Positions 43,243 through 49,687 of a stretch of 51,475 nt of DNA are shown here, in pieces. A program made the translations under genes and the position numbers. The stretch comes from Gemmatimonadota bacterium. Lineage in GTDB: Bacteria; Gemmatimonadota; Gemmatimonadetes; Palauibacterales; KS3-K002. The DNA lies in NCBI GenBank assembly GCA_020350785.1, contig CP070722.1, forward strand, positions 3,507,072 to 3,558,546. The letters are read 5' to 3'. Position 1 is the stretch's first letter. Each line of letters begins with the position of its first letter. Under the pieces are notes generated by a model. It was not told the DNA's origin. It worked only from the letters and a program-made list of their open reading frames with translations, and searched no databases.

Positions 43243-44412
43243 ATGACACTGCGAACGATGCTCACGACGCTCTTGATCCTCGCGTTGACAACGGGTGGCA
43301 GATGCCTGGAGGAGTCGACGGCACCACAGGAGGGCGAGGGGCCCGGCCAGGCGCCGGCACCGCCTACGCTGTCGAACGCCGTCCTGCGCTCGCCCGAGCC
43401 CATCTGCAGCCGACCGAGCACGATCGTGTGCGAGGACTTCGAGACGAGCGGGGCTTCGGATTGGAACGACTACAAGGACAACAACTTCAACGTCCAGAGC
43501 GACGATGCCTTCGGCGGCGAGCGCTCGCTGCGGCAGCGTTACGATTTGGGACAGGTGGGCGCGGGCTGGCTGGCCTGGTTCTTCGGCGACCACCCCAACG
43601 GCGGCGTGCGCGGCGGAGAACGTTTCGAGGAGGTCTACTTCCGGTTCTACCACAAGTTTCAGCCGGGCTGGCCGGACAGCTATCCGCCGAAGGTGGCGCG
43701 GATTCGCAGTCACTTTATCGATGGGGGCTGGCGCTTCGCCTGGGCGGAGCATCTCTGGATCAGCCGCAGCCGTTCCAGGGGAACGCCGGCGTCGGATCCG
43801 ATGAGCCGGATCGCCGCGCCGGACGGCACCGAGTACCTGGACGACGCTGAGCGCCGGTGGCTGGGCAACAAGCCGCTGGATCTGCGCTTCGCGGAGCGTG
43901 ACGGCGAGTGGGTGGCGATCGAGATGCGGGTGAAGCTGAACACGCCGGGCCAGGACGACGGCGAGATCACCTATTGGGCCGACGGCAAAGTGGTGCTGCA
44001 GCGCGAGGGCCTGAACATCAGGGGCGCCTACACCGCGACGACGATCAACGTGGCGATGCTCGATACGTACTGGAACGGGGGCGCCGTCGAGGAGGGATTG
44101 AAGCGCTGGTACGACAACGTGGTGGTGGCGACGGAGCCCATCGGATGTGCCGGCTTCAGCGTCAGTAAGTCGGGGTTGGAGAGGCAGGGCGCCTGGCAGC
44201 TCCAGATCGCGGCGGCCGCGGACGAAAGCTCGCTGGTCTGGGATTCCGGCACGATTCAGGGTGCTGGGGACGAGGTTGTAGTCTCGGAGTCGACGGGAAC
44301 GTTCAGCGGCGGGCGACGCTGCGTGTATCCGTCGGAGGCGCCTTTCATGCGGGCGCGTCAGGCTGTAGGGAGTAGCTGGTCGGAGTGGTCAGACTGGGCG
44401 CCGATGTTCTGA
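43243..44412 (+). CDS. Secreted jelly-roll polysaccharide-lyase-like protein
   Basis: A 389-residue exported protein (signal TLRTMLTTLLILALTTGGRC). The central domain, residues about 60-310, has the concanavalin-like jelly-roll of PL14/heparin-lyase-type enzymes: VCEDFETSGASDW, a strand block EEVYFRFYHKFQPGWPD, RWLGNKPLDLRFAERDGEWVAIEMRVKLN and WADGKVVLQREGLNIRG, ending in TYWNGGAVEEGLKRWYDNVVV. The C-terminal 80 residues form another beta domain (ESSLVWDSGTIQGAGDEVVV). Five cysteines outside the signal could form disulfides. It may cut or bind an acidic polysaccharide; catalytic residues cannot be assigned with confidence. It is divergent from the DUF6265-like gene. Confidence 0.65.
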   Translation: MTLRTMLTTLLILALTTGGRCLEESTAPQEGEGPGQAPAPPTLSNAVLRSPEPICSRPSTIVCEDFETSGASDWNDYKDNNFNVQSDDAFGGERSLRQRYDLGQVGAGWLAWFFGDHPNGGVRGGERFEEVYFRFYHKFQPGWPDSYPPKVARIRSHFIDGGWRFAWAEHLWISRSRSRGTPASDPMSRIAAPDGTEYLDDAERRWLGNKPLDLRFAERDGEWVAIEMRVKLNTPGQDDGEITYWADGKVVLQREGLNIRGAYTATTINVAMLDTYWNGGAVEEGLKRWYDNVVVATEPIGCAGFSVSKSGLERQGAWQLQIAAAADESSLVWDSGTIQGAGDEVVVSESTGTFSGGRRCVYPSEAPFMRARQAVGSSWSEWSDWAPMF

Positions 44413-44544: not shown

Positions 44545-45126
44545 ATGCGAAAGCTACTCGTGCGCGCATTCGTCCTCGGCCTGGCGATCGCCCTGGCGGC
44601 GGTTGGCGGTGTGGCGTCGGCCCAGGCTCAGGGGCCTGAGCCCTTGGAGTTAGGCGCCGTCGCGCCGGATTTCTCGCTGCCGGCGGCTACGCGCGATGGG
44701 GTTCTGGAGAGCCCCATCAAGCTCAGTGACTACAAAGGCAAGACCGTCGTCCTCGCCTTCTTCTTCAAGGCGCGGACCGGTGGTTGAACGATCCAGATGC
44801 ATTCGTACCGTGATCAGTACGCACTGCTATTCAATGGTGGAGAGGACGTCGTCCTCATCGCCATCAGCGCCGACCCGATAGAGGAGTTGGCCTCCTGGGC
44901 GCGGGAGGATGACTTTCCGTTCCTCATGGCCAGCGATGCCGACACGAAGGTGGGCACGGCGTACGGGGCCTTGGCGAGCCGGGCCGGGATGACGAACCGC
45001 AACTTGTTCGTGGTGGGGCCCGATGGTAAGATCGCCTATCGGGCGACGCCCTTCCGCGAGATCGACCCGACGGCGTATACCGAGCTGGGCGAGGCGATCG
45101 ATCGGCTGGCGCCAGGGGAAAGATAG
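44545..45126 (+). CDS. Exported selenocysteine-containing peroxiredoxin (AhpC/TSA family), UGA at Sec81
   Basis: A 193-residue AhpC/TSA peroxiredoxin if the TGA at 44785-44787 is read as selenocysteine. A signal peptide (LVRAFVLGLAIALAAVGGVASAQAQ) sends it to the periplasm. The thioredoxin-fold start (GAVAPDFSLPAA, KLSDYKGKTVVLAFFFKA) leads into RTGG-U-TIQMHSYRDQYALL. The UGA sits exactly at the peroxidatic-cysteine position of the (P)xxxTxxC motif, with the threonine three before it; the usual proline at -7 is phenylalanine. The frame then continues intact (DVVLIAISADP, NLFVVGPDGKIAYRA). No cysteine exists in the mature part, so it would be a one-Sec enzyme needing an external reductant. Reading it as two genes fails: the second half has no ribosome-binding site. 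The neighbours TlpA and CcdA-like are plausible reductants. Confidence 0.8.
44794..44826 (+). promoter_or_regulatory. Candidate bacterial SECIS element
   Basis: Directly behind the TGA, CGTAC (44804-44808) pairs with GTACG (44817-44821) around the eight-base loop CGTGATCA; CAG (44794-44796) and CTG (44824-44826) can extend the stem across an asymmetric internal loop. The conserved guanosine is at the second loop position (44810), 22 nt after the TGA. Loop-G position, loop size and distance agree with bacterial SECIS rules. Confidence 0.65.
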
Positions 45127-45193
45127 GTAGAGGCAGAGATAGAAATTACGCCTGCGGGCGGTGGGGCGGCGACTCCCGCGAGTCCGACGCGCT

Positions 45194-45703
45194 CTACCGC
45201 CCCATTATTTTCTCCAAGGCCGCCACGATCTTCTGGTCCTCAGCCACGCCGGTGTAGGCCACCTGGCCCTGACCATCCAAGATCACGATGTAGGAGGTAG
45301 ACGGCGCCTGGAAGGCGCGAACCGCGGCACCGTCCCCATCCCAGAGCACGCGGCCCGGCATCTCATGATCTGCCAGATGCCGGCGCACCCGGCGCACACT
45401 CTGGTTCACCGCCACGGCGACGATCAAGAACTCTACATCGGAACCGAAACGAGCGTAGGCGGCCGCCAGCTCGGGCTCGAGCGCCTTGCAGACGGGGCAC
45501 CAGGTGGCCCAGAACTCCAGGAGCACGGGCTTCTTGCCGTAGTACGCGCCCAGGTCGACGGCGGCGCCGTCGAGATCCTCGACCTGGGCCGCCGGGGGCG
45601 TCGCGCCCAACGGCAGGCCGATCTGGTCCTGCGCCGCTGCGGGGTGTGCCAAAGCCGCGAGCAGCGCGAACGATGCTGCTGCGCTTCGCCATCCAGTCAT
45701 CAC
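45194..45703 (-). CDS. TlpA/ResA-like periplasmic thioredoxin
   Basis: A 169-residue thioredoxin-fold protein with a signal peptide (AAASFALLAALAHPAAAQ) and the redox motif WCPVC (C69, C72) in LLEFWATWCPVCKALEPEL. The cis-proline region is PSTSYIVILDGQG. Proteins of this group keep periplasmic thiols reduced, for example in cytochrome c maturation or as donors to peroxiredoxins. It overlaps the CcdA/DsbD-like gene by 4 bp and converges with the selenoprotein peroxiredoxin gene 68 bp away. The three genes suggest one redox relay across the inner membrane. Confidence 0.9.
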   Translation of the reverse strand: MMTGWRSAAASFALLAALAHPAAAQDQIGLPLGATPPAAQVEDLDGAAVDLGAYYGKKPVLLEFWATWCPVCKALEPELAAAYARFGSDVEFLIVAVAVNQSVRRVRRHLADHEMPGRVLWDGDGAAVRAFQAPSTSYIVILDGQGQVAYTGVAEDQKIVAALEKIMGR

Positions 45704-46401
45704 AACACCAGGCCCACCTGAATGAAGTAGTACTCGGCCACCGCCAGCAGGATGAGGCCGGCGATCTTCTTGACCCAGATCAGCCAGCTGCCCGATTTGG
45801 GCAGCGCGGCCAGCGCGCCCGAGAAGATGCCGACCACAGCCAGCAGCGCCGTCATGCCCAGCGAGAACACGAACAGGTAGAGAAACCCGAGGACGGCGCT
45901 GCCGGTTCCTGCGACCCAGGTCAGGACCGCCGCGAAGGCGGGCGCCCCGCAGGGCGCGGCGACGATCCCGGAGGTGGCGCCCAAGAGGAAGGCCGCCGGC
46001 AGCGATCCGCCGCGCAGACCGCTGGCCCAGGCCACGAGGCGGCTGGGCGCGGAGATGGGAATCACATCGAGCATCGCCAGCCCGAAGAGGAGGAGCAGGT
46101 TGCCGATGGCGAGTCGTGCCCAGGGGCTGGCGCTGACGGTGCCGAAGAGCGAGCCAGTCAGCCCGGCGACCAGGCCGAGGACGGCGTAGAACATCGCCAG
46201 GCCGGTCACGTAGGTGAGGGTGAGCCGGACGGTGCGGGCCCGGGAGCCGCCCGGGCCGGCGCTGCCGCCGATCACGCCCACGGTGATCGGGATCATCGGG
46301 TAGATGCAGGGCGTCAGGCTGGTCAGGACGCCGGCGCCGAACAGCAGTGCGAGAGCGAGTAGGGGCTGGCTCTGCAGCGACTCGCTGAGGCCTTGAGCCA
46401 T
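45700..46401 (-). CDS. CcdA/DsbD-type membrane electron carrier
   Basis: A 233-residue inner-membrane protein with six or more helices. The paired redox cysteines are C32 in SLTPCIYPMIPIT and C151 in IVAAPCGAPAF, the DsbD-beta/CcdA signature. It carries electrons from cytoplasmic thioredoxin to periplasmic thioredoxin-like proteins. The N- and C-terminal soluble domains of full DsbD are absent; the coupled TlpA-like gene can supply that function in trans. The start is ATG 46399-46401; the longer upstream frame has no signal or membrane character. It is divergent from the TPR lipoprotein gene. Confidence 0.88.
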   Translation of the reverse strand: MAQGLSESLQSQPLLALALLFGAGVLTSLTPCIYPMIPITVGVIGGSAGPGGSRARTVRLTLTYVTGLAMFYAVLGLVAGLTGSLFGTVSASPWARLAIGNLLLLFGLAMLDVIPISAPSRLVAWASGLRGGSLPAAFLLGATSGIVAAPCGAPAFAAVLTWVAGTGSAVLGFLYLFVFSLGMTALLAVVGIFSGALAALPKSGSWLIWVKKIAGLILLAVAEYYFIQVGLVL

Positions 46402-46664: not shown

Positions 46665-48188
46665 ATGAGAAGGAAGATTCATCCGGTGGTCGCCCTAATG
46701 GCCGTCTTGTCGATGGCCGGCTGCGCCCAGGAGGAGGCGGAGAACACGGTCGAGATGGCCGCCGCCGCCGCCAACGTCACCATGCTGATGCCGGTCAGCA
46801 CGGAGTCGTCGGAAGCGCTGGATCAATTCATGCAAGGCCAGCGTGCAGCCGATATGGGGCGCGCCGACGACGCGCGGCCATACTTCCAGAAGGCGGTCGA
46901 GCTCGATCCGGATTTTGCGTTCGGCTATCTGAACGCCGCCGGCGCTGCCAACTCGGTCGCCGAGTTTGAGAAGAACTTGAAGATGGCGGTCGAGCATGCG
47001 GCCGGCGCGAGCGAGGCGGAGCGGCTGTTCATCGAGATCGTGGAGCGGGGCAACAACAACGATACGCAGGGACAGCTGCAGGCGGCCCAGCAGCTTGTCG
47101 AAGTCGCACCCGCCAGCCCCCGCGCCTGGCTGGCGCTGGCGAACGTGCAGAGCGCGATGGGTAATGAGGAGGAGGCGCGGGCCACGATGATGAAGGCGAC
47201 AGAGATCGCCCCTGACTTCGTCCCGGCGCATATGGCCCTGGGCAACTCTTACGTGTTTACGGAGCCTCGCGACCTCGCCAAGGCGCAGGAGCACATGGAG
47301 AAGGCCGTCGAGCTGGAGCCGAACGAGGCGGTGCCGCACGACCTGTTGGGCGACTGCTACCGGGCCCAGAACATGTTGCAGCAGGCGGCGGAGGAGTACA
47401 CCCGGACGGCCGAGCTGGACCCGACCTCGGGCAACGGATTCCAGCAGCGCGGCCACGTGCACTCGTTCCTGGGCAACTACGACCAGGCACGCGCCGACTA
47501 CGACGCCGCGATTCAGCTGGAGAAGGGTACGAACAACGAGGCCGCCTTCGCGGTCTATCGCGCGCTCGTGAACGTCCATGAAGGGAACCCCAAGGCTGCC
47601 ATCGACGAACTGGAAGGTCTGGCCGGCGGAATCGACGCCATGGGTATTCCCGAGCCCACGGGCTTTAAGATCTTCGCGCTCAACAACGCGGCCCAGATCG
47701 CGCTGCACCACAAGATGATCCCCGAGGCGGAGCACGCTCTGCAGCAGCATGCTGATCTGCTGATGCAGCAGGCGCAGCAGATCGGAACCCCTGCCGCGGA
47801 CCGCGATGCGCGCTCGACGGTCGCTCTGTTCGGCGGCTACCTGGCGGCGAACAAGGGCGACTACGAGACCGCGACCGCGAAGGCCCAGGAGTTCATGACG
47901 ATCGTGGAGCCGAACACGAACCCACGGAAGAACGAGCCGGCCCAAGCGCTGCTGGGTTACGTGAGCCTGTTACAGGGTGATTTCGACGGCGCGATCACGC
48001 ACTACGAGCAGTCCAACCCAAACAACATCTATACGACCTACTATCACGCGATGGCGCTGGAGGGCGCGGGCCGAGCCGAGGAGGCCAAGACGCTCTATCA
48101 GCGGGTTGCGACTGAGAACTTCAACAGCGCAGGCCTCGCCCTGGTGAAGAAGGACGCGATGGCGAAGGCCGAGATGGCTTCGATGTAG
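46665..48188 (+). CDS. TPR-repeat lipoprotein
   Basis: A 507-residue lipoprotein. The start ATG 46665 lies behind a perfect AAGGAGG, and the signal PVVALMAVLSMAGC ends in the lipobox MAGC. From about residue 45 to the end it is a regular array of TPR units (ALDQFMQGQRAADMGRADDARPYFQKAVELDP, ALANVQSAMGNEEEARATMMKATEIAP, LLGDCYRAQNMLQQAAEEYTRTAELDP, RGHVHSFLGNYDQARADYDAAI). It is a periplasmic or outer-membrane scaffold, possibly for envelope assembly. A strong hairpin follows the stop, and the expression signals suggest a well-expressed protein. Confidence 0.85.
   Translation: MRRKIHPVVALMAVLSMAGCAQEEAENTVEMAAAAANVTMLMPVSTESSEALDQFMQGQRAADMGRADDARPYFQKAVELDPDFAFGYLNAAGAANSVAEFEKNLKMAVEHAAGASEAERLFIEIVERGNNNDTQGQLQAAQQLVEVAPASPRAWLALANVQSAMGNEEEARATMMKATEIAPDFVPAHMALGNSYVFTEPRDLAKAQEHMEKAVELEPNEAVPHDLLGDCYRAQNMLQQAAEEYTRTAELDPTSGNGFQQRGHVHSFLGNYDQARADYDAAIQLEKGTNNEAAFAVYRALVNVHEGNPKAAIDELEGLAGGIDAMGIPEPTGFKIFALNNAAQIALHHKMIPEAEHALQQHADLLMQQAQQIGTPAADRDARSTVALFGGYLAANKGDYETATAKAQEFMTIVEPNTNPRKNEPAQALLGYVSLLQGDFDGAITHYEQSNPNNIYTTYYHAMALEGAGRAEEAKTLYQRVATENFNSAGLALVKKDAMAKAEMASM
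48147..48165 (+). repeat. 19-bp repeat, copy 1 (3' end of TPR gene)
   Basis: AAGAAGGACGCGATGGCGA inside the codons for VKKDAMAK at the end of the TPR gene is repeated exactly at 49717-49735, about 1.55 kb away. Confidence 0.7.
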
Positions 48189-48246: not shown

Positions 48247-48526
48247 TCGCATCCTGCGGATTGCGCAGGGCGCCCAATATCGCAACCTGACCAAGCCGAA
48301 CTCACACACAAGCTCGCACAGCCAAACAAGAAGTGGTCGGCCGGTGCGACTCTGGCTTTGCTGGGTAGGCCGCACCGCCGCCAGTTGGGCTGAAGAGTGC
48401 CATCGGTGGCGAATTCTTCCGGCCGTGTTGAGTGCTTGTTATCTTGCGAGTGACTCTCTCACGCACGACTAATCGACAGCTTGTGGCATAGCGTGGAACT
48501 GGCAAGAACTGCGGGGCGCGAGTTTG
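48247..48526. other. Intergenic region before the formylglycine-enzyme-like gene
   Basis: About 280 bp with no gene. An imperfect inverted repeat around GTGACTCTCTCAC (about 48450-48462) is the only visible feature and may be a regulator site. Confidence 0.4.
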
Positions 48527-49687
48527 ATGCTTAGCGGCGCGAGTAAAGTGCAGCGCCAGAACAGGCGACGGGCGCTGGCGATGGCCGGTGTCGCTGGCGT
48601 CGTCATCGTGGCCATGAGTGGCTATCTCTATCTGAAGCAGCGTACCGGGACGCGCGCGGAGCTGCAGATGACGTTTCGCCGTGACATCGATACGGATGTG
48701 CAGGCAAGTTACAGAGCGCTGCTGAGCCTCGTGCGGGACTTCGGCGAACCCTCCGCGGAGGCTTTCGGCGGTGCCGTGCAGGAATACGCGGCTTCGCTGT
48801 TTGCCGAAGGGCCGCTGGCCACGGATACGACGGAAGCTATCACGGCCATCGAGGAATTGCGGGTCATCGAAACTGTCTACCCGGCCTTCATGGCGAACAG
48901 GGAGGCTTTTGGCGCGATCGCCTACCGGCTGGAGAGCATCGGCGCGCGAAATGATGATCTGCGAGCTCGCGCCCATCGAGTCGCAGCAGAGGTTCGACAG
49001 AGGTTCATCGAGACGAGCGAACTGGCTGATCTCAAGGCTCAAGACGACCCCCTCAACAAGGGCATTTGGATCAAACCTGGTAGTTTCAGGATGGGCGGCG
49101 AACGTCAGACGCGCTTGTCCGCTGGTTTCTACATACAAGAGCACGAGGTGACGAACGAGGAGTATCGGCGCTTCGACTCGACCCACAGATTCCGTGAAGG
49201 GATGGAGCGGCACCCCGTCGGCAATGCGACTTGGTACGAGGCGATGGCCTACGCGGCGTGGCTCGGCGGTAGCTTGCCCACGGAGGCGCAGTGGGAGCTT
49301 GCCGCGCGGGGGACTGGCGGTCGGACGTATCCGTGGGATAGCGATGAGGCACCGACCTGCGAACACGCCCAATACGGCGGTTGTCCTGGCGGTGGGACGG
49401 TAGAGGTCATGTCCGCCGCGCGCGGGGCAACGCCCGAGGGGGTTTACGACCTGGCAGGCAATGTGTGGGAGTGGGTGAGCGACTGGGAAGCAGAAGCCTA
49501 CGAAGCAGCAGACTCGGTTGACCCGCGCGGCACGGAAACCGGCGCCTATCGCGTGTTGCGGGGCGGTTCGTTCGACTATGATGTGAGCTACCTGCGCGCG
49601 TCGTTTCGCGCCGGCTCCTTCCCCGAGTTCACGATCGGCAGCTCCGGGTTTCGGGTCGTGTGGCAGTTGGCGGCAGGAAAAGACTGA
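48527..49687 (+). CDS. Membrane-anchored formylglycine-generating-enzyme-like (SUMF1/EgtB-fold) protein
   Basis: A 386-residue protein with a basic N-terminus and one membrane helix (AMAGVAGVVIVAMSGYLYL), a coiled-coil-like linker (about 45-175), then a C-terminal FGE-sulfatase domain (about 180-386): GIWIKPGSFRMGGE, FYIQEHEVTNEEYRRF, GNATWYEAMAYAAWLGGSLPTEAQWELAARG, GVYDLAGNVWEWVSDW and YRVLRGGSFDYDVSYLRASFR. FGE-like proteins modify sulfatases or act as non-enzymatic binding modules. The two cysteines in CEHAQYGGC are not placed like the copper-binding pair of true FGE, and there is no iron-binding histidine trio of EgtB type, so a non-catalytic role is likely. The start is ATG 48527. Confidence 0.8.
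   Translation: MLSGASKVQRQNRRRALAMAGVAGVVIVAMSGYLYLKQRTGTRAELQMTFRRDIDTDVQASYRALLSLVRDFGEPSAEAFGGAVQEYAASLFAEGPLATDTTEAITAIEELRVIETVYPAFMANREAFGAIAYRLESIGARNDDLRARAHRVAAEVRQRFIETSELADLKAQDDPLNKGIWIKPGSFRMGGERQTRLSAGFYIQEHEVTNEEYRRFDSTHRFREGMERHPVGNATWYEAMAYAAWLGGSLPTEAQWELAARGTGGRTYPWDSDEAPTCEHAQYGGCPGGGTVEVMSAARGATPEGVYDLAGNVWEWVSDWEAEAYEAADSVDPRGTETGAYRVLRGGSFDYDVSYLRASFRAGSFPEFTIGSSGFRVVWQLAAGKD

Follow-up and report, generated by a model that had tools for sequence, protein, structure and literature searches.

A selenocysteine peroxiredoxin gene linked to tlpA and ccdA suggests a selenium-based envelope peroxide defence in Gemmatimonadota

The window analysed here, 51,475 nucleotides from a Gemmatimonadota bacterium whose 4.09 Mb genome is a single contig and whose closest relatives in a genome scan are also Gemmatimonadota, carries neighbouring genes for a selenocysteine (Sec) peroxiredoxin, a TlpA-like thioredoxin and a CcdA-type membrane electron carrier. 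The peroxiredoxin gene has a Sec codon followed by a SECIS hairpin and encodes no cysteine, and the three genes are linked and co-occur across relatives. We consider it likely that together they specify an envelope peroxidase that works with a single selenium and has its own electron supply, in which electrons would run from CcdA to TlpA to an exported peroxiredoxin, and on to peroxide by way of a selenide-sulfide step.

The peroxiredoxin gene (44545..45126, plus strand) encodes 193 residues when its TGA is read as Sec, and its reading frame is broken by this single TGA at 44785 only. The product matches PF00578 (AhpC-TSA; E=1.6e-27, 96 bits against a cut-off of 26) and was placed in a 22-member alignment. 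Its AlphaFold model (mean pLDDT 87) gave fold matches with Z of 20-23, the closest solved structure being AhpE of Mycobacterium tuberculosis (Z 23.1, rmsd 1.7 over about 149 residues, 32% identity). With a peroxidatic residue and no resolving cysteine, the protein is of the 1-Cys, AhpE-like kind; the resolving cysteine is absent from every Sec and Cys homologue read (99 genes), in which extra cysteines lie almost only in the leader. The first-pass annotation had described a peroxiredoxin without a resolving cysteine, and this holds for the window protein and for all of these homologues. Since none of them has such a residue and the closest fold is that of the 1-Cys AhpE, an outside reductant is needed. 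Membership of the PrxU family was rejected, as the score against NCBIfam NF040737 (62.4 bits) falls far under the curated cut-off of 270 bits. A predicted signal sequence, MRKLLVRAFVLGLAIALAAVGGVASA (44545..44622, plus strand; cleavage near ASA/QA), was read by eye and appears in the model as a low-confidence N-terminal helix. Nearly all homologues have a hydrophobic leader, in some with a lipobox-like LAC/IAC-G. At three loci (L160, L161 and L162) a lipobox-like cysteine stands at the leader end of the Sec peroxiredoxins, and from this motif such proteins may be membrane-anchored lipoproteins.

A genome scan with exact peptide seeds recovered 22 Gemmatimonadota homologues at 52-77% identity, with TGA at the aligned codon in 21 and TGC in one. 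The same scan found no homologue above 37% identity outside Gemmatimonadota, and distant kin may have escaped it because the seeds were exact. Further searching brought the total to 96 loci (one pair near-identical) and 99 peroxiredoxin genes, 89 with TGA (Sec), 10 with TGC or TGT (Cys) and none in a third state. In the window the codon is that of residue 81 (44785..44787, plus strand) and closes the active-site motif FKARTGGU (residues 74-81; 44764..44787, plus strand), in which comparison with the homologues shows Phe in place of the classical Pro. A SECIS hairpin begins 18 nt from the UGA in all 89 Sec genes. Its stem in the relatives is GCGUAC/GUACGC around the loop CGUGAUCA; all 89 genes keep the inner five pairs and 88 of them the sixth as well, the sole exception being the window, whose copy (44803..44822, plus strand) has 5 bp and is without the outermost pair. 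The next pair outward (offsets 17/38) links the wobble positions of two codons and shows covariation (G-C 22, C-G 22, U-A 18), being paired in 63 of the 89 genes against 26.6 in shuffles (0 of 20,000 as high). The Arg and Asp codons of the loop are CGT and GAT in 86/89 Sec genes each, while the Cys genes mostly have other codons at this site and several have lost the stem. Folding of the UGA-proximal 48-60 nt in single sequences, that of the window among them, gave no significant z-score and nothing stabler than shuffles (of one set of six, L181 is ignored for a stretch not beginning at UGA); the case for the SECIS therefore rests on conservation and covariation.

The window genome encodes SelA (558 bits) and SelB (372 bits). 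Its tRNA-Sec was not found by family, pattern or DNA searches, by Rfam at the SelA and SelB loci, or by ARAGORN on about 0.8 Mb that included 3,900 N; the genome sequence has runs of N, and the gene may be masked, missing or divergent. A sister genus (G165) has a tRNA-Sec with anticodon TCA, and of 61 genomes sampled from the phylum about 42 give a strong match. Three genomes with only the Cys form (G033, G037 and G044) are without a strong match, and a fourth genome, G006, has the Cys form yet keeps the tRNA. That the tRNA was not found would favour reading the TGA as an assembly error or a plain stop codon, and the peroxiredoxin gene as broken. However, the same codon is TGA in 89 of the 99 genes and is accompanied by a conserved, covarying hairpin, the coding sequence is conserved on both sides, and SelA and SelB are present, so that we give a broken gene a negligible probability; conservation and SECIS covariation rule out an ordinary stop or pseudogene. 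With a conserved in-frame UGA aligned to Cys in homologues and a SECIS downstream, the gene is that of a selenoprotein and the UGA is, on comparative sequence evidence, a selenocysteine codon. Gene callers halt at UGA, and the enzyme is thus easily annotated as two broken fragments.

The two partner genes lie on the minus strand, tail-to-tail with the peroxiredoxin gene and 67 nt from it, and this convergent arrangement means that the three are not one operon. The gene nearer to it (45194..45700) encodes a TlpA/ResA-like thioredoxin of 168 aa, assigned by profile match (best PDB profile match 2yp6) and by a thioredoxin fold with WCxxC, and predicted to be exported from its leader only. Its WCPVC dithiol site (45488..45502, minus strand) has W67, C68 and C71, all invariant in 20 sequences. 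In several groups (TlpA genes of loci L140, L205, L208, L217 and L018) the position that corresponds to the cis-Pro preceding the TTS/STS motif holds Thr, Leu, Gln or Ala, which is a rare change in thioredoxin folds. The second gene (45700..46401) encodes 233 aa that match PF02683 (DsbD_TM; E=5e-42, 144 bits), with 5vkv, a CcdA, as the sole match of a profile search against the PDB. It consists of the membrane domain alone, with one cysteine per half (Cys32 and Cys151, both invariant in 20 sequences), as in short CcdA carriers; it is not a DsbD or ScsB with fused periplasmic domains, and scores 144 bits against a DsbD model cut-off of 330. The ccdA stop (TGA, 45702-45700) and the tlpA start (ATG, 45700-45698) have one base in common in a TGATG overlap (45698..45702, minus strand), and the two genes are probably translationally coupled. 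The first-pass annotation had them "fused translationally by ATGA": the reading frames do overlap, but the junction is TGATG and the products are two separate proteins, so "overlapping" is the proper word. It was otherwise right about the locus, having recognised all three genes with the peroxiredoxin tail-to-tail to the pair, a periplasmic WCPVC thioredoxin (the motif and a signal sequence are seen) and a membrane protein with the DsbD-beta cysteine pair. Around the trio lie, upstream of the peroxiredoxin, a gene for a secreted protein resembling polysaccharide lyases (43243-44409) and a large TPR-repeat lipoprotein-like gene adjoining ccdA (46665-48185), neither of them a conserved neighbour, and an FGE-sulfatase-domain protein (48524-49684) with weak similarity, under curated cut-offs, to EgtB and the selenoneine synthase SenA.

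When the neighbourhood was compared among relatives, as the first-pass annotation had proposed, the trio was complete at 49 of the 96 loci, far beyond chance; the contrary pattern that it had named, a peroxiredoxin never near TlpA or CcdA, was not seen. The genes are tail-to-tail at 48 of these loci and head-to-head at one (L027, a Cys form). At three further loci TlpA holds its usual position next to a contig end, one locus could not be evaluated, and in the stretch read the other 43 show neither TlpA nor CcdA. Seven family-level groups within the class keep the trio while its flanks vary, and since no flanking gene is common to more than 10 of the 48 trio loci, this is not merely frozen synteny. 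Where the peroxiredoxin is not adjacent, the ccdA-tlpA pair is intact elsewhere in 20 of 20 genomes (one cut by a contig end), and it is found with Cys forms too. A plasmid match in Gemmatirosa (L107) has a peroxiredoxin homologue with no TlpA or CcdA within 4 kb.

The link extends to whole genomes. Comparing the lists of genomes with the peroxiredoxin and with this CcdA, among 298 genomes 222 have both, 23 the peroxiredoxin only, 4 CcdA only and 49 neither; the corresponding counts of genera are 82, 5, 1 and 31. With ancestry corrected for by family strata at the genus level, 69.2 genera with both would be expected against the 82 observed (P = 1.6e-13 for 82 or more). The two genes have been gained and lost together, with co-loss across several families. 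The 23 genomes with the peroxiredoxin and without this CcdA, at the threshold used, include some that are nearly complete; in these, and at the 43 loci with neither partner nearby, the peroxiredoxin must depend on other reductants. The control gene ccmF was found in 283 of the 298 genomes.

We infer the following cycle for the trio. The peroxiredoxin would be made through UGA recoding, exported by means of its signal sequence and, once outside the cytoplasm, would reduce hydrogen peroxide or organic peroxides, residue 81 being converted to a selenenic acid. Because the peroxiredoxin has no resolving cysteine, Cys68 of the TlpA-like WCPVC site would attack the oxidised Sec81 to give a mixed selenide-sulfide, which Cys71 would resolve. 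Oxidised TlpA could then be re-reduced by CcdA through Cys32 and Cys151, with electrons drawn from cytoplasmic thioredoxin.

The partner pair could instead be a general or cytochrome-related reductase, acting in haem attachment or in Sco/oxidase maturation, with its place beside the peroxiredoxin an inherited gene order lacking any direct functional link. Homologues of TlpA and CcdA have such roles elsewhere, an example being the reduction of ScoI by the TlpA of Bradyrhizobium (cited in PMC8945050); genomes with the peroxiredoxin at a different locus still keep the pair, and the window genome has just one other, weaker DsbD_TM protein. We nevertheless think it unlikely, for CcmF is kept in all 43 genomes of the class that lack both the peroxiredoxin and this CcdA, the ccm operon of the window genome carries its own CcmG, the peroxiredoxin is absent from only 4 of 226 CcdA-bearing genomes, and the trio has no conserved flanking genes. 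After the CcmF control, cytochrome c maturation is not favoured as the main role of ccdA-tlpA; the co-occurrence, the control and the separate CcmG tie the pair to the peroxiredoxin instead, with a side role in maturation possible.

Peroxiredoxin-based relays are known in general, and a sensor would have a partner pair that looks alike: the oxidised Sec peroxiredoxin would hand oxidising equivalents to TlpA for a stress signal or for disulfides, in place of clearing peroxide. No dedicated receiver gene is conserved beside the trio, however, and CcdA-type carriers are reductive, which makes such a role very improbable. It also seems quite unlikely that reduction of the Sec peroxiredoxin falls to a low-molecular-weight thiol or to a different thioredoxin of the periplasm while TlpA and CcdA serve a separate, co-selected envelope stress target. 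The 23 genomes without this CcdA speak for it, as does AhpE, the closest structure, which is reducible by mycothiol with mycoredoxin (PMC4360819), but the trio is the only widely common neighbour set, and the peroxiredoxin and CcdA were lost together in several families.

The active site itself has changed along with the use of selenium. From PxxxTxxC to F/YxxxTxxU, Phe or Tyr occupies the Pro position in 83 of the 89 Sec forms and Pro in four, while Pro is retained in all 10 Cys forms; in the window, the Thr and Sec of the PxxxT/SxxC(U) signature are present with Phe in place of Pro. Since a 2026 review describes PxxxTxxU as highly conserved in Sec peroxiredoxins (PMC13188914), the F/Y motif departs from the described pattern. 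The gene tree requires seven changes between Sec and Cys and nine for F/Y. Nearly all independent pairs comparing Sec/Cys with F/Y/Pro point in the same direction, though the test is not significant after correction for ancestry because only three pairs are well supported. One genus (g30) has tandem peroxiredoxins, one Cys and one Sec (L196 6701-7809, L197 6996-8104, L202 6385-7499), and the Sec copies keep the classical Pro. It is an evenly balanced possibility that these proteins form a new catalytic subclass of peroxiredoxins, exported, Sec-only and Cys-free, with the otherwise universal Pro replaced by Phe or Tyr alongside the change from Cys to Sec, phylum-wide and fed by a dedicated CcdA-TlpA pair. 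The replacement is a natural experiment on how an active site adapts to selenium, with Sec and Cys paralogues side by side in one genus.

The distribution points to a defence against peroxide that is based on selenium, lies outside the cytoplasm and extends through the phylum: most of Gemmatimonadota, which is little studied and common in soil and sediment, retains the three genes. Selenium peroxidases outside the cytoplasm raise the question of what reduces them, and the three genes encode a complete and testable answer. Our literature search found no description of a Gemmatimonadota Sec peroxiredoxin. What we did not find described is a Sec enzyme, predicted to be exported, at the end of such a relay, its occurrence in nearly all of Gemmatimonadota and the replacement of the active-site Pro.

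PrxU of Eubacterium acidaminophilum is a bacterial Sec peroxiredoxin of the COG1225/Bcp type (PMC9312934, PMC13188914), with the same AhpC-TSA fold, Sec at the peroxidatic position and TxxU motif; unlike it, the window protein is predicted to be exported, belongs to a group with F/Y for Pro, scores 62 bits against the PrxU cut-off of 270 and is tied to TlpA and CcdA. M. tuberculosis AhpE, reduced by mycoredoxin-1 or mycothiol (PMC4360819), is the closest solved fold and likewise has no resolving cysteine, and its recycling by an external dithiol sets a precedent in mechanism for a reductant from outside, although it has Cys, keeps Pro in its motif and belongs to a cytoplasmic or membrane-associated mycothiol system. 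The extracellular reducing pathway CcdA-Etrx-MsrAB2 of pneumococcus (Saleh et al. 2013, PMC3914529) likewise combines a separate short CcdA with a TlpA-type thioredoxin to feed an envelope stress enzyme, and 2yp6, the best PDB profile match of the window TlpA, is named in that study; but it ends at a methionine sulfoxide reductase where the window has a peroxiredoxin, and it does not involve selenium. The first-pass annotation had proposed a selenium version with separated subunits as a new variant: the exported selenium peroxidase at its end would be new, but a separate carrier with a thioredoxin partner is a layout already known from the pneumococcal pathway. Its Caulobacter precedent is sound, ScsB-TlpA-PprX being a pathway that reduces peroxide in the cell envelope (Cho et al. 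2012, in the account given by PMC5403849). There, as in the relay proposed here from genes, a membrane carrier passes electrons to a TlpA-like thioredoxin and on to an envelope peroxiredoxin; unlike that pathway, the trio has a short stand-alone CcdA and a Sec peroxiredoxin without a resolving cysteine, PprX being compared by its description only.
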